Shown piece after piece: positions 5,896 to 30,897 of a stretch of 64,000 nucleotides of DNA; position 1 is the first letter of the stretch; every line of letters starts with the position of its first letter. The stretch comes from Brevibacterium aurantiacum (GTDB lineage Bacteria; Actinomycetota; Actinomycetes; Actinomycetales; Brevibacteriaceae). Below the pieces are notes generated by a model that searched no databases, was not told the DNA's origin, and worked only from the letters and a program-made list of their open reading frames with translations. The stretch is from the NCBI RefSeq assembly GCF_900169065.1, contig NZ_FXZB01000021.1, positions 1-64,000 on the forward strand, written 5' to 3'. A program made the position numbers and the translations under genes.

Positions 5896-5927
5896 GACTG
5901 CGCCCCGATTCACGGAGATGATTCACC

Positions 5928-7862: not shown

Positions 7863-7907
7863 CGCCGCGGGGCAGTTCAGGCTCGGCTTCGTCCGACAGA
7901 CCATCGT

Positions 7908-8792: not shown

Positions 8793-8798
8793 GGGGTC

Positions 8799-10745: not shown

Positions 10746-10786
10746 GGCTCGGACTTCGATGAGCTAGGCTGTGTAGGATCTGGTTC

Positions 10787-11530: not shown

Positions 11531-11532
11531 TT

Positions 11533-11760: not shown

Positions 11761-11878
11761 CCGGCCCATTGCGCTGACGCGCCCAGTCCTCTCAAGGGCG
11801 AGAAACCTCACACTCTTCGGCAGAGTGCCGAATCGAGGCAGGCTTTGCTGACATAAGCGCATACACTCGTCACCTACG

Positions 11879-11910
11879 AGGCTCCACGAACACCCCAGTT
11901 CGCGGAGCCT
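11879..11910 (+). terminator. Hairpin with T-rich tail before the second BCCT gene
   Basis: AGGCTCCACGAA (11879-11890) pairs with TTCGCGGAGCCT (11899-11910), one mismatch, 8-nt loop, followed by GTTTCTT. It lies downstream of the GH114 gene and glycosyltransferase relic and 86 nt before the BCCT gene. Confidence 0.6.
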
Positions 11911-11996
11911 GTTTCTTGCCATAGCGCACTACCCCCACCGCCCCCTGACGAAGGCTCCTGCCCGCCGCCGAGGCGGACTCGAGCTTGGAGACCACG

Positions 11997-13652: not shown

Positions 13653-13661
13653 GCCTCACTC

Positions 13662-13799
13662 TGGCCCCACGCTACATCGAGCGGACCACTGAGCTTCGAT
13701 GGGAGACGCTACAACCTGCTCCCTCGACGACAAGTGGTCCGCTCGATTGTTCTGGATGAGGATGGTCACCGCAGCCAGAGGTCATTTCGGCGGCGGCAC
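13662..13799. repeat. Direct repeat R1, copy 1 (hairpin plus degraded iclR 3' end)
   Basis: This segment resembles 15181-15337 over its whole length with scattered changes and a short deletion. It contains the hairpin GAGCGGACCACT (13679-13690) / AGTGGTCCGCTC (13733-13744). On the minus strand, 13764-13799 reads AAAEMT, echoing the AAAEVTAKLR end of the IclR gene. It is therefore a second copy of the iclR 3' end and terminator on the other side of the Fic gene. Confidence 0.75.
13679..13744 (+). terminator. Hairpin after the BCCT gene
   Basis: Perfect 12-bp outer arms with further inner pairing (TCGATGGGAG with CTCCCTCGA), 27 nt after the BCCT stop. It is probably a bidirectional terminator, and its diverged twin lies near 15196-15265, next to the iclR stop. 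Confidence 0.6.
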
Positions 13800-13803
13800 A
13801 AAC

Positions 13804-13872
13804 CATAAAGCGCTGACGTCATTTTTATGAGAAACTTATATAATTCATAATTTTTGGGATGGTGACGATGAG
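13804..13872 (+). promoter_or_regulatory. Fic promoter/operator segment R2, copy 1
   Basis: ATTTTTATGA (13821-13830) and TCATAATTTT (13845-13854) are inverted half-sites 14 nt apart in an AT-rich stretch just before the Fic start. The same block, with the same 14-nt spacing, recurs directly after the Fic stop. Conservation in two diverged copies argues for a protein-binding operator, possibly bound by the Fic winged helix itself. Confidence 0.6.
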
Positions 13873-15085: not shown

Positions 15086-15152
15086 AGCGTTGACGTCATT
15101 TTTATGAGAACAACTTCTAAGTCATAAAAATCAGGAGCGCTGTTTATGAGTT
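15082..15152 (+). repeat. Direct repeat R2, copy 2: duplicated Fic operator and start
   Basis: It repeats the Fic leader: CATAAAGCG-TGACGTCATTTTTATGAGAA, then a perfect inverted repeat ATTTTTATGA (15098-15107) / TCATAAAAAT (15122-15131) with a 14-nt spacer, an AGGAG (15133-15137) and ATGAGTTCC at 15146. The Fic TAA stop lies at its left edge. It looks like the 5' end of a second Fic gene whose body was deleted. Confidence 0.75.
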
Positions 15153-15298
15153 CCACACATCTCTCAACTAGTGAAAGCGGTGGCCCCACGCTTCATCGAG
15201 GGGACCACCTAGCTTCGACGGGAGACGCCACAACCGGCTCTTTCGACACCAAGTGGTCCGCTTTGTTGTTCTGGCTGAGGACGGTCGCCGACGCTTGA
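15146..15298 (+). pseudogene. 50-codon chimeric reading frame from the duplicated Fic start
   Basis: It starts MSSTHLSTSESGG, like the Fic N-terminus MSSGNLEPARS, with a strong Shine-Dalgarno 8 nt upstream. It then runs through the R1 hairpin copy to a TGA at 15298. The body has no protein-like conservation, so it is best read as a relic of a second Fic copy, though it could be translated. Confidence 0.45.
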
Positions 15299-15337
15299 GA
15301 GGTCACCGCAGCTTGGCGGTCACCTCGGCGGCGGCCG
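15181..15337. repeat. Direct repeat R1, copy 2 (terminator and iclR 3' end)
   Basis: Counterpart of 13662-13799. It covers the intergenic hairpin (outer arms weakened by changes) and the last eleven codons of the IclR gene. This is the copy in its original context. Confidence 0.75.
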
Positions 15338-16052
15338 CGAGGACCTTGTTCACGAGCGGTTCGGTGTCGGTATCCTCGGTCAGCACATCACCGGCGAGCG
15401 AAAGACCGATTGCTGCGATCGGGCGGGAGAGAACGTCGTAGACGGGGGCTGCGATGGTTGAGATCCCGGGGGTGACCTCGCCGTGTTCGATCGCCCATCC
15501 GGCCCGCCTGTCCTGGGCCAGGATTGCGTTGAGCGCCTTGACCGTGGTCGGGCCCTGGCCGGTGCGGGTGACGAATCCGGACTCGGATTGGAACATCGCC
15601 AGCACCTCTGACTTGGGCAGATGCGCGAGTATCGCCCGCCCGGTCGCCGTCAGGTAACTGGGCATGCGCACTCCGGTGGCGGTGATGACCGCGACCGATT
15701 TCAACGACTGCTCTTTGAGCACGTACACGGTTTCCCAGCCGCGGATCACGGCCAGCTGTGCCGTTGCCGAGGTCTCCTCGGCCAGCTGCCGCACGATGGG
15801 CTGAGCCAGGCGCTGCAGCGGGTTCGTGCGCAAGTAGGAACTTCCCAGTTCGTGCACGCCGGCGCCCAGCACGTAACCGGATTCGGTGCGCACGACGAGC
15901 CCGAGTTCCTCGAGCACGGTGAGCAGCTCGTAGGCACTCGAGCGCGGGATCTCCAGCGCCCGGACCAGGGCACCGGCGGTGATCGGACGATTCGATGAGG
16001 CCAGGTGCCTGAGAATCGCGATCGAGCGCCGCAGTGACGGAACCTCAGCCAC
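15303..16052 (-). CDS. IclR-family regulator, probable regulator of the hut regulon
   Basis: 249 residues. The N-terminal winged helix is SLRRSIAILRHLASSNRPIT...PRSSAYELLTVLEELGLV. The C-terminal IclR effector domain includes ATSATAQLAVIRGWETVYV, RMPSYLTATGRAILA and GVSTIAAPV-like blocks (here GISTIAAPVYDVLSRPIAAIGLS). It is the last gene of the hutI-hutH-amidohydrolase-hutF operon, 3 nt after the hutF stop, with a GTG start. Palindromes GTCCGA-N4-TCGGAC in front of four nearby units are its likely targets; urocanate or a related compound is the likely effector (inference). A fragment of its 3' end is duplicated beyond the Fic gene. Confidence 0.85.
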   Translation of the reverse strand: MAEVPSLRRSIAILRHLASSNRPITAGALVRALEIPRSSAYELLTVLEELGLVVRTESGYVLGAGVHELGSSYLRTNPLQRLAQPIVRQLAEETSATAQLAVIRGWETVYVLKEQSLKSVAVITATGVRMPSYLTATGRAILAHLPKSEVLAMFQSESGFVTRTGQGPTTVKALNAILAQDRRAGWAIEHGEVTPGISTIAAPVYDVLSRPIAAIGLSLAGDVLTEDTDTEPLVNKVLAAAAEVTAKLR

Positions 16053-16055
16053 GGC

Positions 16056-17423
16056 TCAGTCCTCCATCCCCAGGGCGGCGAACGCAGCCCGGTAGAGTTC
16101 CGAGATCTCGCCGAGTTCGGTGTGCACGCCGTCGCGGACTCGCACATGTGCGCCGCTGACGGTCATTGCCACGTCCGCCGAGGTGGCCGAGAGGATGACC
16201 TGCTCCCCCACCGATCCGAAGGTGCGCATGCTGTCGGTTCTCACAGCAATGAAGTCACACGCCTTGCCCACGGCCAGTTCGCCGACGGGCAGGTCGAGGC
16301 TGCGTGCCCCGCCCGTGGTCAGGGAGCTGATGAGCTCGGCCGGTGAGAATCGTCCTCGTTGGCCCGAGTGCAGTCGCTCCCCGGCTTCCAGGCCCTGGGT
16401 CTCGCGTAGTGCGTCGAGGACGACGTGCTGATCGGAGCCGATCGAGATCGTCGCTCCCGCATCGGCGAGTTCGCGGGCCGGTCCGATGCCGTCGGCCAGG
16501 TCGGCCTCCGTGCAGGGGCACATCACGATGTTGGCTTCGGCCCCGCCCAGGCTCGCGATGTCGTCATTGCTGAGGTGCGTGGCGTGGACGGCCGAAAGGT
16601 TCGACGCGACCACACCCGAGCGGTCGAGGACCTGCGTGGGTGTCGTGCCGTAGGCGGCTTGGCAGGCTTCGTTCTCCGCTGGCTGCTCGGACAGGTGCAC
16701 GTGGACTGGTTCGTCAAGTTCGGCGAATCTGGGCAGGTTGGCTGCCGGGACCGCGCGGATCGAGTGGATGGCCGATCCCACGTGGACGAAGCTCTCGCCA
16801 GGGGAAATGACCGGGAACTCGGTGGCGAAGGACTCCGATAGCGCGGCATGGCGGTCCATGTAACCGTCGATGGTTCCATCACCGAACCGAGCCTGTTCTG
16901 CCGAGAGCTCGGAGTCGATGCCGCCGGTGAGGTAGCAGGTGTCGAGGAGTCGGATCCGCATCCCCGCCGAGGTGGCCGCTCGTGCCAGCGCCCGTTCCAT
17001 CGCGTGTGCGCGGGTGGAATCGCCGGCACCATACGGTGTCCCGTCGGGTGCGTGGTGGACGTAGTGGAACTCGCCCACCGAGGTGTAGCCGCCGGCGAGC
17101 ATCTCCGCGAAGACCGCACGAGCCACGGTCTCGTAGCTCTCCGGAGTCAGGCGAGCGGCCACGGAATACATGACTTCGCGCCACGTCCAGAAGGTCCCGC
17201 CGTCACCATGGGTGCGTCCGCGCAGGATGCGGTGGAAGGCGTGGGAGTGGGCGTTGACTCCACCGGGCAGGGTGAAGCCGGGGACCACCTCGGCGATGGT
17301 GGGTGGGGTGTCGATCTCGGTCTCGACCGAGGTCAGGGTGCCTGTCTCATCGGCGGTGAGCAGGACGCCGGTGGCGACCTGCCCGTCGACCCAGGCGGTC
17401 TCGCACCAGAAGCGCGTGCTCAT
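16056..17423 (-). CDS. hutF: Formimidoylglutamate deiminase
   Basis: 455 residues of the amidohydrolase superfamily. It hydrolyses N-formimino-L-glutamate to N-formyl-L-glutamate and ammonia, step four of the five-step histidine pathway. Visible signatures are the metal site PGGVNAHSHAFHRILRGRTHG, GGYTSVGEFHYVHH, VHLSEQPAENEAC, VHATHLS and SIGSDQHVVLDALRE, the HutF pattern. Its ATG overlaps the TGA of the upstream M20 gene (ATGA), so the two are translationally coupled. It belongs to the hutI-hutH operon. Confidence 0.93.
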   Translation of the reverse strand: MSTRFWCETAWVDGQVATGVLLTADETGTLTSVETEIDTPPTIAEVVPGFTLPGGVNAHSHAFHRILRGRTHGDGGTFWTWREVMYSVAARLTPESYETVARAVFAEMLAGGYTSVGEFHYVHHAPDGTPYGAGDSTRAHAMERALARAATSAGMRIRLLDTCYLTGGIDSELSAEQARFGDGTIDGYMDRHAALSESFATEFPVISPGESFVHVGSAIHSIRAVPAANLPRFAELDEPVHVHLSEQPAENEACQAAYGTTPTQVLDRSGVVASNLSAVHATHLSNDDIASLGGAEANIVMCPCTEADLADGIGPARELADAGATISIGSDQHVVLDALRETQGLEAGERLHSGQRGRFSPAELISSLTTGGARSLDLPVGELAVGKACDFIAVRTDSMRTFGSVGEQVILSATSADVAMTVSGAHVRVRDGVHTELGEISELYRAAFAALGMED

Positions 17424-18640
17424 GATGCGGCCCCCAGTTCCCCTTCGAGGACCTTGACCAGGGCGGAGACTCCGGCGCGCTGGTCATCGACTTCGCAGGC
17501 CTCTTCGGGTGCGTGGGAGACTCCGGTCGGGTTGCGTACGTAGAGCATCGCCGAGGGCACGTGTGGGGCCAGGATGCCCGCATCGTGTCCGGCACCCGAG
17601 GGCAGCAGCGGTGCGTCTGGCAGCACGGAGGTCAGCCGGGAGTTGAGTTCGGCGGTGAAGTAGGTCGTCGGTGAGTAGGACTCCTGGGAGATCGACACCT
17701 CAACGCCGGCACCCTCGGCATGCTCGCGGGCGCGCTTCGAGATCGTCTCGAGCACCTGCTTGACCACGGCATCGTCGGCGTGACGGATATCGAGCCAGAA
17801 GCTCATGCCCGAGGCGATGACGTTCGTCCCGCCCGGGTGGATGAGCGTGCGGCCCACGGTTGCCACGGCACTCGCGTCAGTGGCGGCCGCTAGGGTCGGA
17901 ATATCACCGATCACGCGGGAAGCCGCGACCACCGGATCGGCGCGGTGGCCCATCGGTGTCGTACCTGCGTGGTTGCCCTGACCAGCGAAGGAGAAATGCC
18001 AGCGACCATGCCCGATGATTGATGAGCCGATCGCGACCGGCTGGTCGGTGTTGATGAGACCGATGCCCTGCTCGACGTGGAGTTCGATGAAGGAGCCGAC
18101 CTTCTCCAGCCGTGCGGTGTCGGTGCCGATGCGGTTCGGGTCGAGACCGTAGCCGCGGGCGACATCGGCAAAGGTGTCGCCGTTGGCATCGGTGAGACGC
18201 AGCGCCCGGTCTGAGTCGATGGCGCCGGCGATCAGGCGTGATCCCAGGCAGGCCACACCGAAGCGCGAGCCCTCTTCCTCAGGGAAGACGGCGAGCGCCA
18301 GTGGACGCTGGGCGCGTTCGAGTGCACCGGAGGACTTGAGTTCGTCGAAGGCCGCCAGCGCCGAGGCGACACCGAGGGGGCCATCGAAGGCTCCGCCGCC
18401 AGGGACGGAGTCCAGGTGGGAGCCGGTGACGACGGCATTGTCACCGGGCGCAGTCGCCCACGCCCAGGTGATGCCGTTGTCATCAATCTCGGTGTCGAGG
18501 CCACGACGGGCCGCCTCGGCGAGGAACCAGTCACGCAGTTCGCGTTCGGTGTTCGAGAACCCGGACCGCTGGTAGCCGGGACCGCGAGTGTCACGGCCGG
18601 TGTCCTCGATCTGGGACAGGAGGGAGACGACATCGCTCAT
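17420..18640 (-). CDS. M20-family amidohydrolase (allantoate/N-carbamoyl amino acid hydrolase type), probable N-formylglutamate deformylase
   Basis: 406 residues from ATG 18640. It has M20 dinuclear-zinc motifs GSHLDSVPGGGAFDGPLGV, AVFPEEEGSRFG, ELHVEQG, and GAGHDAGILA near the C-terminus. The family includes allantoate amidohydrolases and N-carbamoyl amino acid hydrolases, and annotations will say so. Its place between hutH and hutF, with ATGA overlap to hutF and TGAGATG coupling to hutH, points to the missing last step, N-formylglutamate to glutamate plus formate. No HutG homologue is visible in the window. The role is inferred from context. Confidence 0.85.
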   Translation of the reverse strand: MSDVVSLLSQIEDTGRDTRGPGYQRSGFSNTERELRDWFLAEAARRGLDTEIDDNGITWAWATAPGDNAVVTGSHLDSVPGGGAFDGPLGVASALAAFDELKSSGALERAQRPLALAVFPEEEGSRFGVACLGSRLIAGAIDSDRALRLTDANGDTFADVARGYGLDPNRIGTDTARLEKVGSFIELHVEQGIGLINTDQPVAIGSSIIGHGRWHFSFAGQGNHAGTTPMGHRADPVVAASRVIGDIPTLAAATDASAVATVGRTLIHPGGTNVIASGMSFWLDIRHADDAVVKQVLETISKRAREHAEGAGVEVSISQESYSPTTYFTAELNSRLTSVLPDAPLLPSGAGHDAGILAPHVPSAMLYVRNPTGVSHAPEEACEVDDQRAGVSALVKVLEGELGAAS

Positions 18641-18641
18641 C

Positions 18642-20351
18642 TCAGTTCGCCTCGCCCGAACCGTTGGAGTCGGCTGCATCCTGGTGAGTCGTTGCCGCAT
18701 CCGTACCGGAGGCTGCGGCGGCAGCGTCGAGGTTGCCCAGTGCGGTGAACTCGGGGTCGTTGACCGCGGGTGATCCGCCTTCGGGCAGCCAGGTTCCGGC
18801 AGCTTCGGTGACGGTGTGCTGCAGCGGTGAGACAGATTCGGCCGCGGCGACCAGGGAGCCGTCCTTGACCTTGGAGATCGTCTCGGCCAGCTCCGGGGAC
18901 AGGAAGCGGTCCGGGCCGGGGCCGGGCACGGTTTCGCGGATCGCGGAGATCACGGCGCCGGTGACCGGTGCCGGTGACGCTTCGCGCATATCGCAGGCCC
19001 GGGAGGCGGCGTAGAACTCGATGCCGACGACGCTGGCGAGGTTGTCGACGACCTTGCGCAGCTTGCGGGCGGCCGACCAGCCCATGGACACGTGGTCTTC
19101 CTGCATCGCCGAGGACGGGATCGAGTCCACCGAGGCAGGGCTGGCGTTGCGCTTAGCCTCGGAGACCATCGCGGCCTGGGTGTAGTGGGCGATCATCAGG
19201 CCCGAGTCGACGCCGGCGTCATCGGCGAGGAACGGGGTGAGGTTCTGGTTGCGGGTGACGTCCATCATCCGGTCGGTGCGGCGTTCGGACATCGAGGCCA
19301 CATCGGCGGCGACGATGGCGAGGAAGTCCAGGGCGTGGGCCAGGGGTGCGCCGTGGAAGTTGCCGTTGGAAGAGACCATGCCGTTGGTGAGCACGACGGG
19401 GTTGTCGATGGCCGCACGCAGTTCGCGCTCGGCGACCTGCGTGGCGAAGGCCACGGCGTCGCGGGCTGCGCCGTTGACCTGTGGGGCGCAGCGCATCGAG
19501 TAGGCGTCCTGGACGAGGTGGGTCGAGTCGCGGTGGCTGGCGGTGATGCCGGAGTCCTTCAGCGAGGTCAGCATGTTCGCGGCTGCCGCGGACTGGCCGT
19601 CGTGGGGGCGCAGTGCGTAGTGGAGTTCGGGGGCGAAGACCGCGTCGGTGCCGAAGAGGCCTTCGATGCTCATGGCAGCGGAGACGTCGACGGCGGTGAG
19701 CAGGTTCTCCAGGTCGGTCAGGGCCATGATGAGCATGCCGAGCATGCCGTCGGTGCCGTTGACCAGCGCCAGGCCTTCCTTCTCGGCCAGGGTCACCGGG
19801 GTGATGCCGGCCGCGGCCAGGATCTCATCGGCGGGTCCGGCGACTCCGTCGGGTCCGGCGGCCACGCCTTCGCCCATGACGACGAGTGCGCAGGCAGACA
19901 GTGGAGCGAGGTCACCCGAGCAGCCCAGCGAACCGTATTCGTGGACGACCGGTGTGATGCCGGCGTTGAGGAGATCGACGTAGGTCTGGAGGACCTCGGC
20001 GCGGACACCTGCCCGGCCGGTGGCCAGGGTGCGGGCGCGCAGCAGCATGAGGGCGCGCACGACCTCGCGTTCGACGGGTTCGCCGACGCCGGCGGCGTGG
20101 GAGCGGATGAGCGATTTCTGCAGCTGGGTGCGCAGTTCGGCGGGGATGTGGCGCTGAGCCAGTGCCCCGAAGCCGGTGGAGACGCCGTAGACGGGCTTCT
20201 CGGCCTGGGCGAGGGCGTCGATGGCTTCGCGGTATTTGTTCACGCGTGCCAGGGTGGTCTCACTCAGGGCCACCTTCGCATCGTGGCGGGCGACGTCGAC
20301 CACCTGGGCGAATGTGAGGGTATCGGGATCGAGATCGATGAAGACTGACAT
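18642..20351 (-). CDS. hutH: Histidine ammonia-lyase
   Basis: 569 residues. It converts L-histidine to trans-urocanate and ammonia. The MIO cofactor forms from Cys144-Ser145-Gly146 in GSLGCSGDLAPL, where most HALs have Ala-Ser-Gly; I recall the Cys form from streptomycetes. Also present are YGVSTGFGAL (55-64) and VQDAYSMRCAPQVNGAARD, plus SSAMQEDHVSMGW. The protein is about 50 residues longer than usual because of a low-complexity Ala/Asp/Thr-rich C-terminal tail. AAAGG precedes the ATG. It lies 51 bp after hutI in the same operon. Confidence 0.95.
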   Translation of the reverse strand: MSVFIDLDPDTLTFAQVVDVARHDAKVALSETTLARVNKYREAIDALAQAEKPVYGVSTGFGALAQRHIPAELRTQLQKSLIRSHAAGVGEPVEREVVRALMLLRARTLATGRAGVRAEVLQTYVDLLNAGITPVVHEYGSLGCSGDLAPLSACALVVMGEGVAAGPDGVAGPADEILAAAGITPVTLAEKEGLALVNGTDGMLGMLIMALTDLENLLTAVDVSAAMSIEGLFGTDAVFAPELHYALRPHDGQSAAAANMLTSLKDSGITASHRDSTHLVQDAYSMRCAPQVNGAARDAVAFATQVAERELRAAIDNPVVLTNGMVSSNGNFHGAPLAHALDFLAIVAADVASMSERRTDRMMDVTRNQNLTPFLADDAGVDSGLMIAHYTQAAMVSEAKRNASPASVDSIPSSAMQEDHVSMGWSAARKLRKVVDNLASVVGIEFYAASRACDMREASPAPVTGAVISAIRETVPGPGPDRFLSPELAETISKVKDGSLVAAAESVSPLQHTVTEAAGTWLPEGGSPAVNDPEFTALGNLDAAAAASGTDAATTHQDAADSNGSGEAN

Positions 20352-20402
20352 CTGGGACCTTTCGGTTAAGCGGTAAGTGCGTACGTTCGTTAACTGTGTA
20401 GT

Positions 20403-21683
20403 TCAGCTTCGTGGTCGGTTGTCGGCGACGAGTTCGCCGCCGCGGTAGACGCGTTCGACCAGTTGGACGCCGGGCCGGTATGCCAGGTGGCGATAGCTGG
20501 GTGCGTCCAGGATGGCCAGATCGGCCCGGGCTCCGGCGCCGAGGTGGCCGACGTCGGTGCGCTGCAAGGCGTTGGCGCCGCCGGCGGTCGCAGCCCAGAC
20601 GGCCTGTTCGACGGTGAAGTGCATGTCGCGCACACCGATGGCGATGGCAAATGGGACGCTGTTGGAGAATCCCGATCCCGGGTTGCAGTCCGTGGCGATC
20701 GCCAGGCGCACCCCGGCCTCGACGTAGCGGCGGGCGTCGGGGTAGGGCTGGCGGGTGGAGAATTCAATGCTCGGCAGCAGCGTGACGACGGTGCCAGCTG
20801 TGGCGAGTGCCGCGAGGTCGGAGTCGGAGGCGAAGGTTGCGTGGTCAACCGAGACGCAGCCGAGTTCCGCGCCGAGCTTGAGCGCTCCTCCCTCGGTGAG
20901 CTGGTTGGCGTGCAGTCGCGGCTTCATGCCCGCGGCCAGGCCGGCTTCGATGATCCGTCGAGTCTGGTCCTCGGTGAAGGCGCCCTTCTCACAGAACACG
21001 TCGATCCACTTCGCCTGGCCGGTCGCGGCCGGGATGATCTCGTCGATGACGAGGTCGACGTAGGCCTCCGGGTTCTCCTTGTGCTCGGGCGGGACCACGT
21101 GGGCAGCAATGAGAGTGGATTCCTCGGTATGCCGATTGATGATCTGCAGTGCGCGCAGCTCGTCCTTGACAGTGAGTCCGTAGCCGGACTTGATCTCAAA
21201 GCTCGTCGTGCCCTGCCTGGTTGCCTGATCCATAAGATGGACGAGGTTGGCCTCGAGTTCCTCATCGCTGGCCGCGCGGGTGGCGGCGACGGTGGTCGCG
21301 ATGCCGCCGGCCGAATACTTCTGCCCCGCCATCCGTGCAGCGAATTCCTCGGACCGGTCGCCTGCGAAGATGAGGTGGTTGTGGCTGTCGACGAAGCCCG
21401 GGATGACGGCCTTGCCACCGAGGTCGATCGTGTCGACCTCGACGCCGGCACTCGCCGAGGTCAGCGTTCCGTTTTCGATGTCATCGTCGTTGACCACCTC
21501 GGCGGGGGTGGGATTCTGATCGCAGAGGTGATCCTGAAGTGCGGTGTCCACCTGAGCGGACGGTCCCGACCACAGGATCCGGCCGTCGTCGACGAGCACT
21601 GCAGCGTCTTCGATGACATTGAGTGCGCCGAGCGTGTTGAGGTCGTTGACGACGAGTTCGCTGATCCCGGTGATGATCTGCAA
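20403..21683 (-). CDS. hutI: Imidazolonepropionase
   Basis: 426 residues, amidohydrolase superfamily. It hydrolyses 4-imidazolone-5-propanoate to N-formimino-L-glutamate, step three of histidine degradation. Visible motifs are PGFVDSHNHLIFAGDRSEEF (zinc His and substrate Arg), EIKSGYGL, AAHVVPPEHKENPE, DVFCEKGAF, LHANQL and ATDCNPGSGFS. The start is apparently TTG 21683 with GAAGGA upstream. It is the first gene of a five-gene operon ending in the IclR gene, with a palindromic operator 87 nt upstream. Confidence 0.94.
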   Translation of the reverse strand: MQIITGISELVVNDLNTLGALNVIEDAAVLVDDGRILWSGPSAQVDTALQDHLCDQNPTPAEVVNDDDIENGTLTSASAGVEVDTIDLGGKAVIPGFVDSHNHLIFAGDRSEEFAARMAGQKYSAGGIATTVAATRAASDEELEANLVHLMDQATRQGTTSFEIKSGYGLTVKDELRALQIINRHTEESTLIAAHVVPPEHKENPEAYVDLVIDEIIPAATGQAKWIDVFCEKGAFTEDQTRRIIEAGLAAGMKPRLHANQLTEGGALKLGAELGCVSVDHATFASDSDLAALATAGTVVTLLPSIEFSTRQPYPDARRYVEAGVRLAIATDCNPGSGFSNSVPFAIAIGVRDMHFTVEQAVWAATAGGANALQRTDVGHLGAGARADLAILDAPSYRHLAYRPGVQLVERVYRGGELVADNRPRS

Positions 21684-21769: not shown

Positions 21770-21785
21770 GTCCGACATTTCGGAC
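21770..21785 (-). promoter_or_regulatory. Hut-regulon palindrome 1, upstream of hutI
   Basis: GTCCGA-CATT-TCGGAC, a perfect 6-bp inverted repeat 87 nt upstream of hutI. The same sequence precedes hutU and, with one or two changes, the CoA-transferase and permease genes. Confidence 0.75.
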
Positions 21786-21850: not shown

Positions 21851-23167
21851 TCACCTGCAGTTGATCGTGCCTGTGGCGCAGTCGACGAGGGTCAGGAATC
21901 CGTCGTCGTCGAGGAATCCGAGGTCACCGGTGTGCAGCCAGCCATCCTTGAGTGTCTCGGCTGTCACGCCGGGACGGCCGAGGAAGCCGTACATAACGGT
22001 CTGCGCGGAGATGACCACCTCGCCGGCCTCTCCTGCCGGCAGGATCCTGCCGGCAGGATCCTGAATGGCCACGGTGATTCCCGGCAGTGCTGTCCCTGCG
22101 GTTCCGAGGCGGCGGGTGCCGTCGTTGCGGTTGAGGGTCGCCGCCGCCGAGAATTCCGAGGGACCGTACCCTTCAAGGACGGTCACGCCGAACTTCGATT
22201 CGAAACGGGTGGTCGCATCGACCGACATCGGTGCAGCTCCGCTGAGAACGAACCGCAGGGAGGAGGTGTCGACAGTGCGTCTCTTCGTGGCTTCAAGGGC
22301 CGAGTAGATCGCCGGCACAGCCGAGAAGTAGGTCGGACGCACCTCCTCGACGACGTCCCAGAAAGTTCTCGGATCGAACTCCGGCAGCACATGGACGCTG
22401 CCGCCGAACATGAGTGGTGAGAGTGTACCCGCGAGGAGCCCGCGGCTGCTGAAGAGAGGCATCACCAACAGGCTGCGTGCGTCGTCACCGAAGTCGACCC
22501 CGTTGAGAATCGACCACACCATGGCCGAGACGTTGGCGTGGCTGAGCAGGCAGCCCTTCGGCAGACCTGACGTACCCGAGGTGTAGACGATGAGTGATCC
22601 GTCGCTGCCCCGAACATTGAGGTCACGGATCGGCTCGGCACCGCCCAGTTCGGCATCGCCCTGTTCGACACCGCTCTGTTCGGCACTGCCGCGGAAGCAT
22701 TCGTCGGCGGCGGAGAGGAAACCGAGGCCACGGACGTCGGCAACGGCCTCGGCGCGGGAGTCGCCGATGACCAGCACGACACCGGAATCATCAAGTTGGA
22801 AGCCCACCTCGTCGTTGGTCAGAGCAGGGTTGATCGGGGTCAGCACCGCACCGAGGGACCAGGTGGCGAACATCGTCGTGATGAACTCGGGGCCGTTGCC
22901 CAGCAGCACACCGACCACGGCCCCGAGACCGATCCTGAACTGAGTCCTCATGGCATGCGCGGTCGCCGCCACGGCGGATGCGAATCCGGTGTTGTCGAGT
23001 CTGCCGCCGGGCCAGCTCAGGCACGGTCCGTATGGGTCGGAGCCAGCCCGGTTGGCAGGGAGCCCGACCAGATCGGCCACGGGGAAGGCTGAGGTCACTC
23101 CCGCCTCGGCGACCCATGCTGGCGTATAGCTCCTGGTCGGGGCGGAAGTGGTAGTCGAAGTCTGCAT
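21851..23167 (-). pseudogene. Acyl-CoA/AMP-forming ligase lacking its C-terminal domain
   Basis: 438 residues of an ANL-superfamily adenylating enzyme. The P-loop is YTSGTSGLPKG, the A5 region GYGPSEFSA, and the A7 motif LHTGDLGFLDDDG, just before the end. The chain stops at LVDCATGTINCR, where complete enzymes continue with a hinge, the ...GENIYP... loop and a roughly 100-residue lid carrying the catalytic Lys. No lid is readable downstream in another frame, so the 3' end was lost by rearrangement. The residual protein could bind substrate but probably cannot complete thioester formation. A 14-bp tandem duplication (about 22037-22064) lies inside. It diverges from the PucR-like gene. Confidence 0.75.
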
Positions 23168-23313: not shown

Positions 23314-24621
23314 ATGGTCGCCTCTCCTTCGCGGACGCCCGGCGACGGGCCCGGTCCCACACATGTCACTCCCGAGGTGATGGCGCAGCTCTCCCGGATC
23401 TCCGCTGAACTGAGTCCGCGCGTCCCAGAGCTGACCCGGAGCGTCTACGAGTATCTGGCGACGCGGATCGCCGAACTCGGTGAGGAGCCCACGCTCCTTG
23501 ATCTTCTCAGCGCGAGCATCGCAGGCAATATCGAGACCATCTTCCATGCGCTCCAGCATGGGATCGCTCCGGACAACCTCGAACCGCCTGTTGCCGCCTA
23601 CGAATACGCCAGACGGCTGGCACAGCGCGGGATCTCAGTGAATGCCTTGGTCAGGGCCTACCGCCTGGGTCAGCAACGGCTGTTGCAGAGCGCCTACGAC
23701 TTCATCACCGCCAATGACGAGCTCCCGGTCGATCTGGCTCCGGCAGTGTTCCAGCGGCTGGTCGATGAGGTGTCAGAATACATCGACTGGATGTCACAGA
23801 AGGTCGCCCTCCTCTACGAACAGGAACGCGAAGCGTGGTTGGCGAACCGCACCACTGCGCGGGAATCCCAGGTCAGAGACATCATCAAAGGCGGGGACGT
23901 CGACGCCGCTGCGGCCGCGGCAACACTGGGCTACAGCCTCACCGCCCGACATGTGGCGGTCGTCGCCTGGACACACCATTCGGCACCGGAGACCGTTGAT
24001 GACCTGGGCAGATTCACCTCCGCCATCAACGCCGCAGGCGCAGCAATGGGTTCCCCACGCTCGAGGCTGATCATCAGTCGCGACCAGGACACCGCCTGGG
24101 GATGGATCACGGTGCCCGAGAGCTGGGAGTACGAGGAGTCCCTCGGCGATCGGCTGGATGCCACCGACGCTGTGCACTTGGCGTTCGGTTCCGCTCACAC
24201 CGGTGCTGAAGGATTCCGGCTCTCTCACCAAGAAGCTATGCGAGTCCAGAACGTCTGCGTGGCCGGACGGTCACCGGCGGCACTGCGCTCCCACGACGAC
24301 CCCGGAATGGCTCTCGTCTCACTGATGTCCACTGATGTCGAGGCGGCGCAGGACTGGGTGCGCTCCGTGCTCGGCCCGTTGGCGGAGAACTCCGAGGCCA
24401 ATGCCCGCCACCGCTCGACGTTGCTGACATTTTTGCGTCACGACCTCAGCTACACAGCGACGGCGACCGCGATGACGATGCACAAGAACTCGATCCGGTA
24501 CCGGGTGGAGATCGCAGTATCGCTCCTCGGCACGGACCTGGGATCGAATCGGCTCAGCATCGAGGCGGCCCTCTATGCCCACAGCTATATCTTTGTGCCG
24601 GGAGAACAGATCCCAGGTTGA
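23314..24621 (+). CDS. PucR/CdaR-type helix-turn-helix transcriptional regulator
   Basis: 435 residues. The N-terminal helical domain (about 1-170, RYLAxR-like region TRSVYEYLATRIAELGEE) is followed by a GGDEF-like middle and a C-terminal PucR HTH: LLTFLRHDLSYTATATAMTMHKNSIRYRVE. These activators often control neighbouring catabolic genes. It is divergent from the truncated ligase and may have regulated it. The ATG follows TAGTCT (23302-23307) by 6 nt, suggesting leaderless translation. It converges on hutU across a long hairpin. Confidence 0.82.
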   Translation: MVASPSRTPGDGPGPTHVTPEVMAQLSRISAELSPRVPELTRSVYEYLATRIAELGEEPTLLDLLSASIAGNIETIFHALQHGIAPDNLEPPVAAYEYARRLAQRGISVNALVRAYRLGQQRLLQSAYDFITANDELPVDLAPAVFQRLVDEVSEYIDWMSQKVALLYEQEREAWLANRTTARESQVRDIIKGGDVDAAAAAATLGYSLTARHVAVVAWTHHSAPETVDDLGRFTSAINAAGAAMGSPRSRLIISRDQDTAWGWITVPESWEYEESLGDRLDATDAVHLAFGSAHTGAEGFRLSHQEAMRVQNVCVAGRSPAALRSHDDPGMALVSLMSTDVEAAQDWVRSVLGPLAENSEANARHRSTLLTFLRHDLSYTATATAMTMHKNSIRYRVEIAVSLLGTDLGSNRLSIEAALYAHSYIFVPGEQIPG

Positions 24622-24789: not shown

Positions 24790-26511
24790 TTACTGCGCAG
24801 CGGACTCCTCGTCGCGCTTGTCGAGCTCCGGGATCATCGGAACGCGCATGCCGCGCTCTTCGGCGACCTCGGAGGCACGGTCGTAGCCGGCGTCGACGTG
24901 GCGGATGACGCCCATGCCCGGGTCGTTGGTGAGCAGGCGGGCGAGCTTCTTCGCAGCCAGCTCGGTGCCATCGGCCACGGAGACCTGACCGGCGTGGATG
25001 GAGCGGCCGATGCCGACGCCGCCACCGTGGTGGATGGACACCCAGGTCGCACCCGATGAAGTGTTGACCATGGCGTTGAGCAGCGGCCAGTCGGCCACGG
25101 CGTCGGTGCCGTCGAGCATCGATTCGGTCTCACGGTAGGGGCTGGCGACCGAACCGGAGTCGAGGTGGTCGCGGCCGATGACGATCGGGGCCGAGATCTT
25201 GCCCTCGGCGACGAGCTGGTTGAACAACAGTCCGGCCTGCTGGCGCTCCTTGTAGCCGAGCCAGCAGATGCGGGCCGGGAGACCCTCGAACTCGACGTAC
25301 TCGTTGGCGGCATCGAGCCAGTTGTGAAGGTGCTCGTTCTCGGGGAAGAGTTCCTTGAGCGCCTTGTCGGTGACCTCGATGTCCTTGGGATCACCGGAGA
25401 GTGCGACCCAGCGGAAGGGTCCGAGGCCTTCGCAGAACAGCGGGCGGATGTAGGCCGGGACGAAGCCGGGGAATTCGAAGGCACGTTCGTAGCCGGCCTT
25501 GCGCGCTTCGTCGCGGATCGAGTTGCCGTAGTCGAAGACCTCGGCACCGCGGTCCTGGAATTCGACCATGGCCTGCACGTGCTTGGCCATGGACTCCTCG
25601 GCGCGGATGGTGAACTTCTCCGCATCCTGCTCCGCTTCCTCGTGCCAGTCGTCGACGCTGACGCCGATGGGCAGGTAGGACAACGGGTCGTGGGCCGAGG
25701 TCTGGTCGGTGACGATGTCGACCTCGGCAGCCTCCGGGCGGTCGAGGATCATCGGCAGGACCTCTGCAGCATTGCCGACGAGCCCCACGGACAGTGCCTG
25801 CTTGTTCTTCTTGGCCTCGATGACCTTGGCCAGTGCCGTATCGATATCGGTCTCAACCTCGTCGAGGTAGCGCTTGGACTTGCGACGGTCGAGGCGGGTC
25901 TTGTCGACGTCGATGATGAGGCAGGCGCCGCCGTTGAGCGTCACCGACAAAGGCTGTGCGCCACCCATGCCGCCACAGCCGCCCGTGATAGTCAGCGTGC
26001 CGGCCAGGGTTCCGTTGTAGCGCTTGCGGGCAATGGCACCAAAGGTCTCGTAAGTGCCCTGAAGGATGCCCTGGGTGGCGATATAGATCCAGGATCCGGC
26101 GGTCATCTGGCCATACATCATCAGGCCCTCGGACTCGAGCTTGCGGAAATGCTCCCAGTTGGCCCAGTCGCCGACGAGATTGGAGTTGGCGATGAGCACC
26201 CGCGGGGCCCATTCGTGGGTGCGCATGACACCGACGGGCTTGCCCGACTGGATGAGGAGGGTCTCGTCGTCCTCGAGATCGTCGAGGGTGCGTACGATCG
26301 CGTCGTAGGCCTCCCATGAACGAGCCGCGCGACCGGTGCCGCCGTAGACGACAAGGTCTTCGGGACGTTCGGCGACCTCGGGGTCGAGGTTGTTCATGAG
26401 CATGCGCTTGGGCGCTTCAGTCTGCCAGCTCTTGGCGGTGATCTCGGTGCCCCGGTCGGCGCGGATCACGCGAGAAGGGTCGTGCTGGGTGAAAGTCGGC
26501 TTGGTGGTCAT
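24790..26511 (-). CDS. hutU: Urocanate hydratase
   Basis: 573 residues from ATG 26511, with GGAG upstream in AAGGAGAGTCAC. It hydrates urocanate to 4-imidazolone-5-propanoate using tightly bound NAD+ as electrophile. Diagnostic segments are [13 protein letters not shown], the NAD loop [29 protein letters not shown] with the conserved Cys, [18 protein letters not shown] and [15 protein letters not shown]. It stands apart from the hutI operon but has its own copy of the GTCCGA-N4-TCGGAC palindrome about 98 nt upstream. Confidence 0.95.
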
Positions 26512-26608
26512 GTGACTCTCCTTCGTCGTACGGTCATAGGGTCTGTCCTGCCTACACACTCCAATTCTGACGATTCCCCACAGAAGTGGAAGTGGTACGG
26601 ATCAAGTT

Positions 26609-26628
26609 ATGTCCGACATATCGGACAT
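26609..26628 (-). promoter_or_regulatory. Hut-regulon palindrome 2, upstream of hutU
   Basis: ATGTCCGA-CATA-TCGGACAT, a perfect 8-bp inverted repeat with a 4-nt centre, about 98 nt upstream of hutU. It is the best-conserved member of the set of four. Confidence 0.8.
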
Positions 26629-26895: not shown

Positions 26896-26911
26896 GTCTG
26901 AGATACCGGAC
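26896..26911 (+). promoter_or_regulatory. Hut-regulon palindrome 3 (degenerate), upstream of the CoA-transferase
   Basis: GTCTGA-GATA-CCGGAC matches 10 of 12 positions of GTCCGA-N4-TCGGAC with identical spacing, 55 nt before ATG 26967. It could bind the same regulator more weakly. Confidence 0.5.
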
Positions 26912-26966
26912 GAATGTTGTTCACCACTCATTGTCTTCCACGCCTCCCACCTCGAGGATTATCCTC

Positions 26967-28109
26967 ATGAACGCAACGAAACAACTACTCGACGGGGTCA
27001 GGGTCGCAGACTTCTCGCGCGTGCTGGCCGGCCCTTATGCCACCGCCATGCTCGCCGATCAGGGCGCCGAGGTCTTCAAGATTGAAATGCCGGGCCACGG
27101 TGATGACTCCCGTCACCTGGGTCCCTTCACCGACACGGGATCGACGTACTTCACATCCCTCAACCGGGGCAAACGCTCCATCGAGGCCGATCTCAAGGAT
27201 CCCGAGCAGCATGCGCAGCTGCTTGACTTCATCCGCACCTGCGATGTGGTCGTCGAGAACTTCCGGCCGGGAGTGGCAGCCAAACTGGGCCTGTCCTTTG
27301 AGGACATCAAAGAAGTCAAACCCGACATCGTCTACGCCTCTATCTCCGGCTTCGGACAGACCGGAACACAGGCGAAACGGCCCGCCTACGACACTGTCAT
27401 CCAAGCCCTGAGCGGACTCATGTCGTCCACCGGCTTCCCCGAGGGATCCCCCACCCGGGTGGGGGAATCCATCGCCGATGTCTCCGCCGGAGTCTTCGCC
27501 GCCTTCGGTGTCTCGAGCGCACTCTTCCACCGCCAGACCACCGGGGAGGGTGCCCACATCGACATCCCGATGCTCGACGTCATGCTTGCCATGCAGCCGA
27601 CGAACACGGCCATCCATGCCGCCGGGTCGACACCGAATCGCGTGGGCAACCGGCACCCGATCTCGGCGCCATTCGACACCTATGCTGCCGCCGACGGTCT
27701 CGTCGTCATCGCCGTCGCCAACGACAAACTCTTCGGCGTCCTCACAGCCACGCTCGGCAAACCTGAGCTCCTCATCGACCCGCGTTTCGCCACCGATTCC
27801 GACCGTTCGGACAACGATGAGGCCCTGCGCGCCGAGATCGAGGAGTTCACCACCGGCTACACGGTGGACGAGCTGTGCGCGATCTTCGACGCGGCGGGAG
27901 TTCCCAACTCCCCCGTCCTCAACTTCACTGAGGCGGTCGACGGTCCGATCACCGACGGTCGAGGTCTCACCGCTACGGACGAGCGGACCGGGCATACCTT
28001 CCTGGCCCATCCGATCCTCGTCAACGGCGCCAGGCCCGCGTCTGCACTTCCCGTACCCCACCTCGGCGAGCACAATGCCGCATTCACGACAGAATCTACG
28101 AAGGAGTAG
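26967..28109 (+). CDS. CaiB/BaiF-family (class III) CoA-transferase
   Basis: 380 residues from ATG 26967, with GAGG 10 nt upstream. It has the N-terminal block VADFSRVLAGPYATAMLADQGAEVFKIE, LNRGKRSI, and DVVVENFRPG. The catalytic Asp is Asp171 in GESIADVSAG; GEGAHIDIPMLDVML is also conserved. Class III enzymes move CoA between carboxylic acids through an Asp-anhydride. The acyl-CoA dehydrogenase ATG is 4 nt after its stop, so the two act together. Position inside the hut regulon suggests an imidazole carboxylic acid as substrate (see findings). Formyl-, succinyl- or glutaryl-CoA chemistry remains possible. Confidence 0.9.
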   Translation: MNATKQLLDGVRVADFSRVLAGPYATAMLADQGAEVFKIEMPGHGDDSRHLGPFTDTGSTYFTSLNRGKRSIEADLKDPEQHAQLLDFIRTCDVVVENFRPGVAAKLGLSFEDIKEVKPDIVYASISGFGQTGTQAKRPAYDTVIQALSGLMSSTGFPEGSPTRVGESIADVSAGVFAAFGVSSALFHRQTTGEGAHIDIPMLDVMLAMQPTNTAIHAAGSTPNRVGNRHPISAPFDTYAAADGLVVIAVANDKLFGVLTATLGKPELLIDPRFATDSDRSDNDEALRAEIEEFTTGYTVDELCAIFDAAGVPNSPVLNFTEAVDGPITDGRGLTATDERTGHTFLAHPILVNGARPASALPVPHLGEHNAAFTTESTKE

Positions 28110-28113
28110 GACC

Positions 28114-29253
28114 ATGGCTTTCGACATCAGCACCGACGAGCAGGATCTCGTCGACGCGGTCGCCCAGATCAGCAGGGACGTCCTGGTCCCGCAGGCAGCG
28201 GTCGCGGACGCAAACGAGCGCGTCTCAGATGAGACCCTGAAGACCCTCGCCGAGGTGGGGGTCCTCGGCCTCAATCTGCCCGAGGAATTCGGTGGGCCGG
28301 GCGTGGGCTCCGTAGCGATGAGCCAGATGGTCGCCGCCGTCACGGAGGCATGCGCGTCGACGGCCTCGATCATCACCGCGCAGTTCCTCGCCACCGACTC
28401 GATCCTCCTCGGCGGCACCGATGCGCAGCGCGAGTCGTGGCTGCCGCGTGCTGCTTCAGGTGCAGTCATCGGCGCGTTCGGGCTGACCGAGCCGGGCGCG
28501 GGATCGAACCCGGCCGAGATGTCGACGCGGGCCACACGCGTCGAGGGCGGCTGGCACCTCAAGGGCACGAAGTGCTTCATCACCAATGCCGGATTTGCCG
28601 ACTTCATCGTTGTCTACGCGAAGACCGACGTCGAGGCCGGGCACAAGGGGATCAGTGCCTTCATCGTGGATACGAAGGCGGCTGGTGACGGGCTGAATTT
28701 CAATCCTCCGGAGAAGACGATGGGCCTGCGCGGCAGCCCGGTCTACGAATTCGTCATCGACACCATTGTGCCCACCGACGCTCTCCTCGGCGTCGAGGGT
28801 GAAGGCTTCACCACGGCCATGCGCGTCCTCGACCGTGGGCGCATCGAAGTCGCGGCGATGAGCTTGGGCATCGGCAAGGCCGCACTCGACGCGGCCGTGG
28901 CCTGGGCCGGCGAGCGCAGGATCAACGGCAAGCCCCTCAACCGCCTGCAGGGCATCGCCTTCAAGCTCGCGGACATGTACACGAAGTACCGCTCGGCCTG
29001 GCTGCTGACCATGGATGCCGCGGAGCAGAGGGACGCCGAGGTGGACTTCACCCGGTCCTCGGCGACGGCAAAGCTCGCCGCTTCCGAGGCGGCTGCGTTC
29101 ATCGCCGATGAGGCCCTGCAGATCCATGGCGGGTACGGCTTCACACGGGACTTCCCGCTCGAACGTTATGTCCGCGACGCGAGAATCTACCGCATCTATG
29201 AGGGTTCCTCGGAGATCCAGCGCACGATCATCGCCAGATCGCTGTCGAACTGA
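28114..29253 (+). CDS. Acyl-CoA dehydrogenase
   Basis: 379 residues, the standard soluble ACAD length. The FAD/substrate loop is FGLTEPGAGSN, then KCFITNAG, and the C-terminal EALQIHGGYGFTRDFPLERYVRDARI. The catalytic base is Glu363 in IYEGSSEIQR, the position used by short- and medium-chain dehydrogenases. It should introduce a trans-2 double bond into an acyl-CoA, passing electrons to ETF. AAGGAGTAGG precedes its ATG, and it is coupled to the CoA-transferase. A terminator hairpin follows. Confidence 0.92.
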   Translation: MAFDISTDEQDLVDAVAQISRDVLVPQAAVADANERVSDETLKTLAEVGVLGLNLPEEFGGPGVGSVAMSQMVAAVTEACASTASIITAQFLATDSILLGGTDAQRESWLPRAASGAVIGAFGLTEPGAGSNPAEMSTRATRVEGGWHLKGTKCFITNAGFADFIVVYAKTDVEAGHKGISAFIVDTKAAGDGLNFNPPEKTMGLRGSPVYEFVIDTIVPTDALLGVEGEGFTTAMRVLDRGRIEVAAMSLGIGKAALDAAVAWAGERRINGKPLNRLQGIAFKLADMYTKYRSAWLLTMDAAEQRDAEVDFTRSSATAKLAASEAAAFIADEALQIHGGYGFTRDFPLERYVRDARIYRIYEGSSEIQRTIIARSLSN

Positions 29254-29298
29254 ATCAGTCGAAACAGAACCGAAACCTGCATCGGAATACGATCAGGT

Positions 29299-29335
29299 CG
29301 GGGTTCAAGGGCGATCGATTCGCCCTTGAACCCCG
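29299..29335 (+). terminator. Terminator after the acyl-CoA dehydrogenase
   Basis: Perfect 15-bp arms 29299-29313 and 29321-29335 (CGGGGTTCAAGGGCG and its complement), 7-nt loop, followed by TTTCC, 45 nt after the stop. It separates the two-gene unit from the permease. Confidence 0.8.
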
Positions 29336-29359
29336 TTTCCGGCTCCGCACCCAACAATG

Positions 29360-29375
29360 ATCCGATATGTCGGAC
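29360..29375 (+). promoter_or_regulatory. Hut-regulon palindrome 4, upstream of the NCS1 permease
   Basis: ATCCGA-TATG-TCGGAC matches 11 of 12 consensus positions with the same 4-nt spacer, 79 nt before the permease ATG. Confidence 0.65.
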
Positions 29376-29454: not shown

Positions 29455-30897
29455 ATGGCGAGCTCATCCAATTCGGGGATCGAGAAACGATCCATCGAAA
29501 TGGTGCCTGACAATGAACGTCACGGCACCGCACGTTCCCAGTTCACGCTGTGGTTCGGCGCCAACACCCAGATCACCGCCATCGTCGACGGAGCACTCGC
29601 CGTCGTCTTCGGTGCCGATGCGCTGTGGGCCATCATCGGTCTGCTCATCGGCAACGTCATCGGCGGCATCGTCATGGCCCTCCACTCCGCGCAGGGACCA
29701 CAGCTGGGTCTGCCGCAGATGATCTCCTCGCGGGCACAGTTCGGCATCATCGGGGCGATCATTCCACTGGTGCTCGTCGTGCTCATGTACATCGGCTTCG
29801 CCTCAACCGGTGCCGTGCTCTCCGGACAGGCCGTCAACCTCATCATCGGTGTCAATACGCCGGCGGTGGGCATCGTGATCTTCGGTGCACTGACTGCCGC
29901 TGTGGCCCTGCTGGGATACAAGTACATCCACGTGCTCGGTCGCGTCTCCTCAGTCACGGGCCTGCTCGGATTCCTCTTCATCACCTACTGCGTGTTCACG
30001 AAGGTCGACGTCCCCGGACTGATCTCGGGCTCGTCCTTCGCATTCCCAGCATTCCTGTCCGCGATCGCACTGTCCGTGGGCTGGCAGCTGACCTACGGTC
30101 CCTATGTCGCCGACTACTCGCGCTACCTGCCGCGCTCGACTCCGGCGTCGAAGACCTTCTGGTTCACCTTCGGCGGATCCGTCATCGGTTCACAGTGGTC
30201 GATGACCCTGGGCGCCCTCATCGGCGCCGCCGCCATGACCGAGACCGGCAACTCCTTCGTCGAGAACCAGGTCAGCTTCGTCGGCGACATCGTCGGGGGC
30301 GGGGTCTACGCTCTGCTCATCTTCATCGTGATCCTGTTGGGCAAGCTCACCGTCAACACTCTCAACGCCTACGGCGCGTTCATGTGCACGCTGACGATCC
30401 TCACCTCTTTCGGGGAGAAGACGAACATCCGCCGCTGGACCCGCGCGGTCTTCGTCATCGGCATCGTCACCCTGACCGTGCTTGTGGCCCTGTTGGCGTC
30501 GGCGGACTTCCTCGCGAACTTCAAGAACTTCGTCCTCGCCCTGCTTATGGTCTTCACTCCATGGAGCATCATCAACCTCACCGACTTCTACCTGATCTCG
30601 AAGGACCGCTTCGACATCCCCGCCTTCTACGACCTCAAGGGTCGCTACGGCAAGTGGAACTGGCGAGCCTTGGTGGCCTATGGAGTCGGTGTCGTTGTGC
30701 AGATTCCTTTCCTCGCCCAGTCCTTCTACACCGGGCCCCTGGTCGAGAAGCTGGGAGGAGCCGACATCTCGTGGATCGTCGGCATCGTGGTGACATTCCT
30801 CCTCTACTTCTTCATGCTCCGCAACCGCAGCGTTGCCCCTTCGGAGACCATCTACCCGGATGTGGAGGCACTGGACGCCCAGCGCAGCCGAGGCTAA
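29455..30897 (+). CDS. NCS1-family (cytosine/purine permease-like) transporter, probable histidine-pathway uptake
   Basis: 480 residues with about 12 membrane helices. NCS1 features are FTLWFGANTQITAIVDGALAVVFG, HSAQGPQLGLPQMISSRAQFG, GWQLTYGPYVADYSRYLP and FTPWSIINLTDFYLI. These symporters normally carry nucleobases, hydantoins or thiamine. AAGGAG lies 7 nt before the ATG. The upstream palindrome shared with hutI and hutU suggests it imports urocanate, histidine or imidazole propionate. I recall that a cytosine-permease-like protein (HutTu) serves as urocanate transporter in Pseudomonas, which would be a precedent. Confidence 0.85.
   Translation: MASSSNSGIEKRSIEMVPDNERHGTARSQFTLWFGANTQITAIVDGALAVVFGADALWAIIGLLIGNVIGGIVMALHSAQGPQLGLPQMISSRAQFGIIGAIIPLVLVVLMYIGFASTGAVLSGQAVNLIIGVNTPAVGIVIFGALTAAVALLGYKYIHVLGRVSSVTGLLGFLFITYCVFTKVDVPGLISGSSFAFPAFLSAIALSVGWQLTYGPYVADYSRYLPRSTPASKTFWFTFGGSVIGSQWSMTLGALIGAAAMTETGNSFVENQVSFVGDIVGGGVYALLIFIVILLGKLTVNTLNAYGAFMCTLTILTSFGEKTNIRRWTRAVFVIGIVTLTVLVALLASADFLANFKNFVLALLMVFTPWSIINLTDFYLISKDRFDIPAFYDLKGRYGKWNWRALVAYGVGVVVQIPFLAQSFYTGPLVEKLGGADISWIVGIVVTFLLYFFMLRNRSVAPSETIYPDVEALDAQRSRG

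Follow-up and report, generated by a model that had tools for sequence, protein, structure and literature searches.

What does a class III CoA-transferase (CoAT), paired with an acyl-CoA dehydrogenase (ACAD), do among genes for histidine utilization (hut)? This question is raised by a stretch of 64,000 nucleotides from Brevibacterium aurantiacum (assembly GCF_900169065.1, contig NZ_FXZB01000021.1, positions 1 to 64,000; hereafter the window), in which the two genes lie between hutU, the gene for urocanate hydratase, and a permease gene. A first-pass annotation had proposed that the pair converts imidazole propionate into urocanate, the substrate of HutU. We establish here the enzyme families and catalytic residues of the pair, its gene order, palindromes, recurrence and common ancestry. 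Our results support the proposal: the pair is likely to give the Hut pathway an additional point of entry, with substrate, direction and recycling of CoA suggested by genomic context, namely by shared operators, by operons lacking a detectable histidine ammonia-lyase gene (hutH), and by modules lacking a ligase or thioesterase gene. According to PMC13320830, imidazole propionate formed by bacteria of the gut has been linked to cardiometabolic disease, and urocanate reductase UrdA acts on the same substrate pair; the paper also covers the roles of HutH and UrdA in forming imidazole propionate, and competing uses of histidine.

Both enzyme assignments of the first-pass annotation were confirmed. 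In the Pfam scan, the CoAT matched PF02515 over its full length (residues 8-370, E 1.9e-113), in agreement with class III membership. Its catalytic Asp171, within the motif ESIADVSAG, was aligned with Asp in 69/69 rows including Escherichia coli CaiB, Frc and YfdE. The ACAD showed all three expected domains (N-terminal, PF02771; middle, PF02770; C-terminal, PF00441), and Glu363 within IYEGSSEIQ was matched by Glu in 55/55 distinct loci of the ACAD clade described below and in 52/54 other ACADs. The genes are spaced by 4 nt (28110-28113), as had been noted, and the downstream permease proved to be of the NCS1 type. CoAT, ACAD and permease are transcribed divergently from hutU.

A link between the pair and the hut genes is provided by palindromes of the type GTCCGA-N4-TCGGAC, which precede hutI, hutU, CoAT and the permease gene in the window (Table 1). 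The form GTCCGA-N-AT-N-TCGGAC, allowing ≤1 mismatch, occurs at seven places in the 4.15 Mb genome. Three of them belong to the hut-region set; of the other four, three fall within the main local open reading frame (ORF), and one follows closely on the end of a long ORF. Taken alone, the CoAT site of the window would be weak evidence. In the main group of congeners (25 loci, L034-L058, window not counted), a palindrome with 0-1 mismatches stands 71-72 nt before CoAT in 25/25 loci, and another stands 95-97 nt upstream of the permease gene in 25/25, with 0-1 mismatches except for two in L044. Among the regions that contain these genes, hutU is preceded by the palindrome in 13/13 and hutI in 10/11, the exception being L057, where hutI directly follows hutU. 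Three of four divergent Brevibacterium loci keep a variant site (≤2 mismatches), while L062 does not. The palindromes of B. mcbrellneri before hutU (GTCCGACATACTGGAC) and before CoAT (GTCCGACTAGCTGGAC) carry one and the same altered half-site. The CoAT palindrome is also kept in 11 genomes in which the pair lies 12-35 kb from hutU. The claim of a palindrome set common to hutU, the pair, the permease gene and hutI thus held in the window, and before CoAT and the permease gene the palindrome keeps fixed offsets in 25/25 congener loci; by its operator-like site shared with hutU and hutI, the pair would belong to the hut regulon.

We propose that the CoAT would transfer CoA onto imidazole propionate and that the ACAD would remove the alpha,beta hydrogens of imidazolepropionyl-CoA to give urocanyl-CoA. 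The electrons would pass to an electron-transferring flavoprotein (ETF), in Halomonas one encoded in the same operon and in Brevibacterium presumably the housekeeping ETF. Urocanyl-CoA would then serve the CoAT as CoA donor for a further molecule of imidazole propionate, and the urocanate released would go on to HutU and HutI. Import of the substrate would be the task of the adjacent permease, and control of all units via the palindrome would fall to a single hut regulator, probably that of the IclR family.

Among 57 Brevibacterium genomes, that of the window included, the ACAD was detected in 30 (E ≤ 1e-80). CoAT was located directly upstream in 30/30 and the permease gene downstream in 26/30 (again counting the window), and hutU was present in 51/57, including all 30 with the pair. 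The distance between pair and hutU was ≤5.2 kb in 14 genomes, 12-35 kb in 11 and 766 kb in one, and in four hutU was on another contig. A survey of other actinobacterial hut loci for the pair, as the first-pass annotation had suggested, was negative: the ACAD was found at E ≤ 1e-95 in 0/395 other genomes of an Actinomycetota sample, and in a sample of the order it matched in 20/396 genomes, all of them Brevibacterium. As far as these samples go, Brevibacterium seems to be the only genus of Actinomycetota to have the pair.

In other phyla the pair did recur. A contig scan was run with 13 aligned Brevibacterium ACADs, and the best 80 of 420 relatives were kept. Among these 80, the nearest after Brevibacterium (51-59%, best segment) came from Halomonas/Billgrantia, an Aromatoleum metagenome-assembled genome (MAG) and an Osedax symbiont, the rest being at 37-44%. 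A search of the Halomonas family (201 genomes) gave nine genomes with a match, seven of them already in the set, and in a sample of 398 evenly drawn Pseudomonadota genomes, similarity to the Halomonas ACAD (E ≤ 1e-100) was the sole criterion of choice. These searches yielded 22 clade loci outside Brevibacterium: L124-L133, L135 and L183 (contig scan), L259 and L260 (Halomonas family) and L276-L283 (Pseudomonadota). CoAT adjoins ACAD in 22/22. The first-pass annotation had named a pair found mostly outside hut loci as evidence against its reading; instead, hutU lies within ~10 kb in 16/22 (L124, L125, L127, L129-L132, L135, L259, L260, L276, L278-L281, L283), in L129 and L131 only as a piece at the contig end. 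The Pseudomonadota sample contained nine matching genomes including the query genome; in the other eight, CoAT was upstream in 8/8 and hutU within 10 kb in 6/8, corresponding to a binomial P of ~2e-13 under random gene placement with relatedness ignored. The pair lies inside a hut operon in L279 and L281, and L276 has the order HutC-HutU-CoAT-ACAD-NCS1, with a permease of the same family as in the window (50.7% identical). Three Halomonas loci without adjacent hutU (L126, L128, L183) carry a HutC-like gene and a TGTATATACA site before CoAT; their HutC-like proteins are 54-55% identical to that of L124, and TGTATATACA also precedes the HutU-CoAT-ACAD genes in L260 and L276. As a control, 45 contig-scan loci with other ACADs only, many of them on short contigs and from other taxa, contained HutU in one case (L146).

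Some further features of these loci were observed. A LysR-type regulator gene stands beside the pair in L133, L277, L278, L280, L282 and L283 (35-65% identical in the pairs compared), so that the LysR family is a third kind of regulator beside the pair, after the palindrome system and HutC; the LysR genes of L277 (65%) and L282 (46%) resemble the one in hut-linked L278. In L183 (10001-11470), a Halomonas salina MAG, the ACAD match is split by ~400 bases, reflecting either an assembly fault or a disrupted gene. On L146 (10-3449), a contig of a Lachnospiraceae MAG, hutU and an ACAD1-type gene are divergently oriented.

The Halomonas operons bear on the direction of the reaction. L124, L125 and L127 share the order HutC, Gate protein (on the other strand; in pieces in L127), HutI, HutG, HutU, CoAT, ACAD, EtfB, EtfA, Gate transporter, in which EtfBA would supply the electron acceptor expected of the ACAD. 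In the genomes G418 (L124) and G421 (L127), no hutH was detected by TIGR01225 or PF00221, and the single hutU of each lies inside the HutI-HutG-HutU-CoAT-ACAD operon. Urocanate must therefore be imported or made from another compound in these two. To judge from the enzymes added to the operon, imidazole propionate would be the obvious source. Halomonas citrativorans is one species in which hutH was not found. G419 (L125) has only a lyase scoring below the hutH cut-off. In G580 and G600 a PF00221 lyase gene lies near the operon; the one in G600 adjoins a second copy of hutU. G424 and G426 contain four hutU copies each, with near-equal scores and several at contig ends, suggesting recent duplication with separate hut modules. 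In L124, L126 and L276 the module genes are consecutive, with no space between them that could hold a gene for a CoA ligase or a thioesterase, which fits the CoA loop that we infer between urocanyl-CoA and imidazole propionate, a loop of the kind found in the caffeate and carnitine systems.

FastTree trees, with CaiA and CaiB as outgroups, supported a common origin of these pairs. The ACAD tree comprised 105 rows, and 113 after eight had been added. The hut-linked ACADs and the second ACAD (ACAD2) of four clostridial loci (L145, L154, L157, L169) formed one clade with support 1.0 (59 rows, 55 distinct loci). Without ACAD2 the clade had a support of 0.969, compared with 0.468 before the eight new rows, and the CoAT tree contained a matching clade without the anaerobes at 0.967 (56 rows, 52 distinct). 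Ser85 and Asp95 were present in 55/55 distinct clade loci and in 0/54 and 1/54 other ACADs, respectively, and Thr88 in 53/55 and 2/54, the 54 other rows being mostly next-best matches of the same scan, not random ACADs. Ser85 and Asp95 together constitute a residue signature marking the hut-linked ACAD clade. Ser85 and Thr88 would correspond to the pocket-base positions Thr96 and Glu99 of medium-chain ACAD; with the pocket placed by this comparison, an acid at the bottom of the acyl pocket could hold the imidazole N-H.

Several observations weigh against a role of the pair in imidazole propionate breakdown. L133, L277 and L282 contain no hut gene in the stretch read, the ACAD is missing at E ≤ 1e-80 from 27 of the 57 Brevibacterium genomes, among them 21 with hutU, and five pair-bearing genomes show no visible hut linkage (the four with hutU on another contig and the one at 766 kb). 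As to chance occurrence of the palindrome, with a free centre one more exact copy exists in the genome, at the start of a Nudix-like ORF (C55:104589), and one-mismatch sites occur elsewhere in the window at 5443, 27797 (inside CoAT) and 31415. In the CoAT tree, the anaerobe CoAT joins the hut-linked clade at 0.435, which is unsupported. Seven of ten Halomonas/Billgrantia genomes examined pass the hutH cut-off, and most Halomonas with the pair have a hutH-type gene; moreover, G418 and G421 are drafts of unknown completeness, so that absence of hutH is no proof. An AMP-binding ligase gene lies near the pair in the window and in B. antiquum, making an external CoA donor possible there. Finally, neither the CoAT nor the ACAD of the window reached the cut-off of an NCBIfam equivalog model, so that the substrate has to be argued from context alone.

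The alternative that fares best is that the pair reduces urocanate to imidazole propionate as an electron sink, the enzymes running backwards with reduced ETF as in caffeyl-CoA reductase. The reaction is reversible in principle, and the four clostridial anaerobes carry the module ACAD1-Gate-CoAT-ACAD2-EtfB-EtfA at or near hutU. In L169 (Oscillibacter ruminantium, 10001-19092) and L157 (Pseudoflavonifractor phocaeensis, 4069-11609) the module is followed by HutU, which is cut by the contig end in L157. In L145 (Clostridiales bacterium CCNA10, 8601-17140) and L154 (uncultured Clostridium from a chicken sample, 8397-17224) hutU-hutI lies several kb off on the same contig. The L169 HutU passes TIGR01228 (433 bits, cut-off 375), and the Gate transporter of this locus is 48% identical to that of Halomonas. 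An agmatinase/HutG-like gene was seen upstream of the module in L145 and L154, and the Oscillibacter ACAD2 was found in 0/393 other genomes of its order at E ≤ 1e-120. Such an anaerobe cluster could make or consume imidazole propionate. Brevibacterium and Halomonas, however, are aerobes, and for Halomonas genomes in which hutH was not detected, operons with HutU, HutI and HutG are understandable only where urocanate is made or taken up and then burned; we thus regard reduction by the pair as unlikely. A wider picture can be put forward with some hesitation, as possible rather than probable: urocanate and imidazole propionate may be interconverted in several phyla by a CoA- and ETF-dependent, UrdA-independent route, with aerobes (Brevibacterium, Halomonas) burning imidazole propionate, and clostridial anaerobes, some of them from animal guts according to their records, using the sister ACAD with CoAT, EtfBA and the Gate transporter to make or consume it.

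Known systems offer parallels to oxidation of imidazole propionate by the pair. CarA/CarC-DE in caffeate reduction and FldA/AcdA-EtfBA in Stickland reduction recycle CoA between arylacrylate and arylpropionate by a CoA-transferase and use an ACAD with EtfBA for the redox step; unlike these, the pair described here is expected to work oxidatively, in aerobes, on an imidazole ring and to feed HutU. CarC was only a distant PDB match of the ACAD (6fah_C, 234.6 bits vs 294.5 for the best), and among the NCBIfam matches listed for the window pair there was no Car or Fld/AcdA model, no search aimed at these systems having been made. CaiB/CaiA of the E. coli carnitine pathway are a class III CoA-transferase and an ACAD that, at the level of CoA esters, interconvert a saturated acid and its unsaturated form, and the ETF genes fixAB adjoin the cai genes, as EtfBA adjoins the pair in the Halomonas operon. 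In contrast to the Cai system, the CoAT-ACAD-permease unit of the window contains no CaiC- or CaiD-like gene. A carnitine system was rejected on the Cai model scores (108.7 of 413 and 164.8 of 540). UrdA is not known to be a CoA-ester enzyme, whereas the window proteins show only CoA-transferase and ACAD domains.

It is very unlikely that the pair serves the breakdown of some unrelated acid (glutarate or a branched acyl compound, for instance) and owes its hut position to shared nitrogen or carbon regulation. Succinyl-CoA:glutarate CoA-transferase and glutaryl-CoA dehydrogenase belong to the same two superfamilies, and matches below cut-off include succinate-glutarate CoA-transferase and dehydrogenases of other acyl-CoAs. 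The named models nevertheless stay far below their NCBIfam cut-offs (CoAT, 299.4 of 750 for glutarate; ACAD, 229.9 of 470 for glutaryl-CoA), and a SUGCT/GCDH system was rejected. Moreover, the association with hut is seen in two phyla, and with a sister ACAD also in a third, although the regulators differ. The Arg with which glutaryl-CoA dehydrogenase binds glutarate would presumably fall on Thr83 of the window ACAD. It is hardly credible that the pair acts instead on a compound closely related to imidazole propionate or urocanate, such as cis-urocanate, which would be isomerised by being reduced and oxidised again, or a derivative with a methylated or thiolated ring: the same context would fit, and Asp95, at its likely pocket position, could bind any imidazole, but the HutU of the window and of L124 fit urocanate hydratase above the thiourocanate models, and imidazole propionate is the simpler candidate and occurs naturally.

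The surroundings of the pair are compiled in Table 1. The genes from hutI to the IclR gene (hutI, hutH, M20 amidohydrolase, hutF, IclR) span 15303-21683 on the minus strand. The window HutI was assigned by similarity to HutI proteins, of which that of L125 passes TIGR01224, and the position of the M20 amidohydrolase makes it a candidate N-formylglutamate deformylase. The IclR gene adjoins hutF also in L043, L057 and L253. An ergothioneine-type (thiourocanate) hydratase was rejected for the window HutU (urocanate hydratase 896 vs 646 and 695 bits); the L124 HutU scored 986 bits for urocanate hydratase vs 677 and 711 for the two thiourocanate models. The AMP-ligase of the window looks truncated because the ORF of its B. 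antiquum counterpart (L038) has 576 aa. This ligase gene, together with a PucR gene (23314-24621), stands between hutI and hutU in the window and, among 29 fetched congener regions, in L038 only. PucR is an unlikely hut regulator, being present in 1/29 of these regions (13 with hutU), again L038.

Table 1 Features of the window around the CoAT-ACAD pair (nt positions; aa, amino acids)
Feature	Position	Strand	Basis and remarks
IclR-family regulator, candidate hut regulator	15303..16052	-	PF01614 + PF09339; role suggested by context
hutF, formimidoylglutamate deiminase	16056..17423	-	NF006681 511 bits, cut-off 362
M20 amidohydrolase, candidate N-formylglutamate deformylase of hut route	17420..18700	-	NF006770 541 bits, cut-off 372
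hutH, histidine ammonia-lyase	18642..20351	-	74% identical to L252 locus, which passes TIGR01225 (G434:C19)
hutI, imidazolonepropionase	20403..21683	-	37-40% to HutI of L124, L125, L127; start per ORF finder
Operator-like palindrome, hutI unit	21770..21785	.	GTCCGACATTTCGGAC, exact
AMP-binding acyl-CoA ligase, apparently truncated	21851-23167	-	438 aa, ends early
hutU, urocanate hydratase	24790..~26511	-	TIGR01228 895.6 bits, cut-off 375, scanned as ORF 24790-26559; start codon by inspection
Operator-like palindrome, hutU	26611..26626	.	GTCCGACATATCGGAC, exact
Operator-like palindrome, CoAT-ACAD unit	26896..26911	.	GTCTGAGATACCGGAC, 2 mismatches, exactly 71 nt before CoAT ATG
CoAT, class III CoA-transferase, candidate imidazole propionate/urocanate CoA-transferase	ATG 26967..28109	+	380 aa, PF02515, catalytic Asp171
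ACAD, acyl-CoA dehydrogenase, candidate imidazolepropionyl-CoA dehydrogenase	ATG 28114..29253	+	379 aa, Pfam ACAD domains, catalytic Glu363, Ser85, Asp95
Operator-like palindrome, permease	29360..29375	.	ATCCGATATGTCGGAC, 1 mismatch
NCS1-type permease, candidate urocanate/imidazole propionate importer	29455..30897	+	PF02133; role suggested by context

A literature search over titles and abstract starts, in which subscription journals were thinly covered, returned no genes for bacterial imidazole propionate breakdown, and in a full-text search urocanyl-CoA and imidazolepropionyl-CoA (with variant spellings) had no match among the papers searched. Pseudomonas testosteroni reportedly degrades imidazolylpropionate via urocanate, as described by Coote and Hassall in 1973 as biochemistry without genes. 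The pair would be a candidate genetic basis of this bacterial imidazolylpropionate degradation. It provides specific, testable genes for imidazole propionate breakdown and, in Ser85/Asp95, a signature by which such genes can be detected; it also gives grounds for searching gut anaerobes for sinks of imidazole propionate or for a second source of it.

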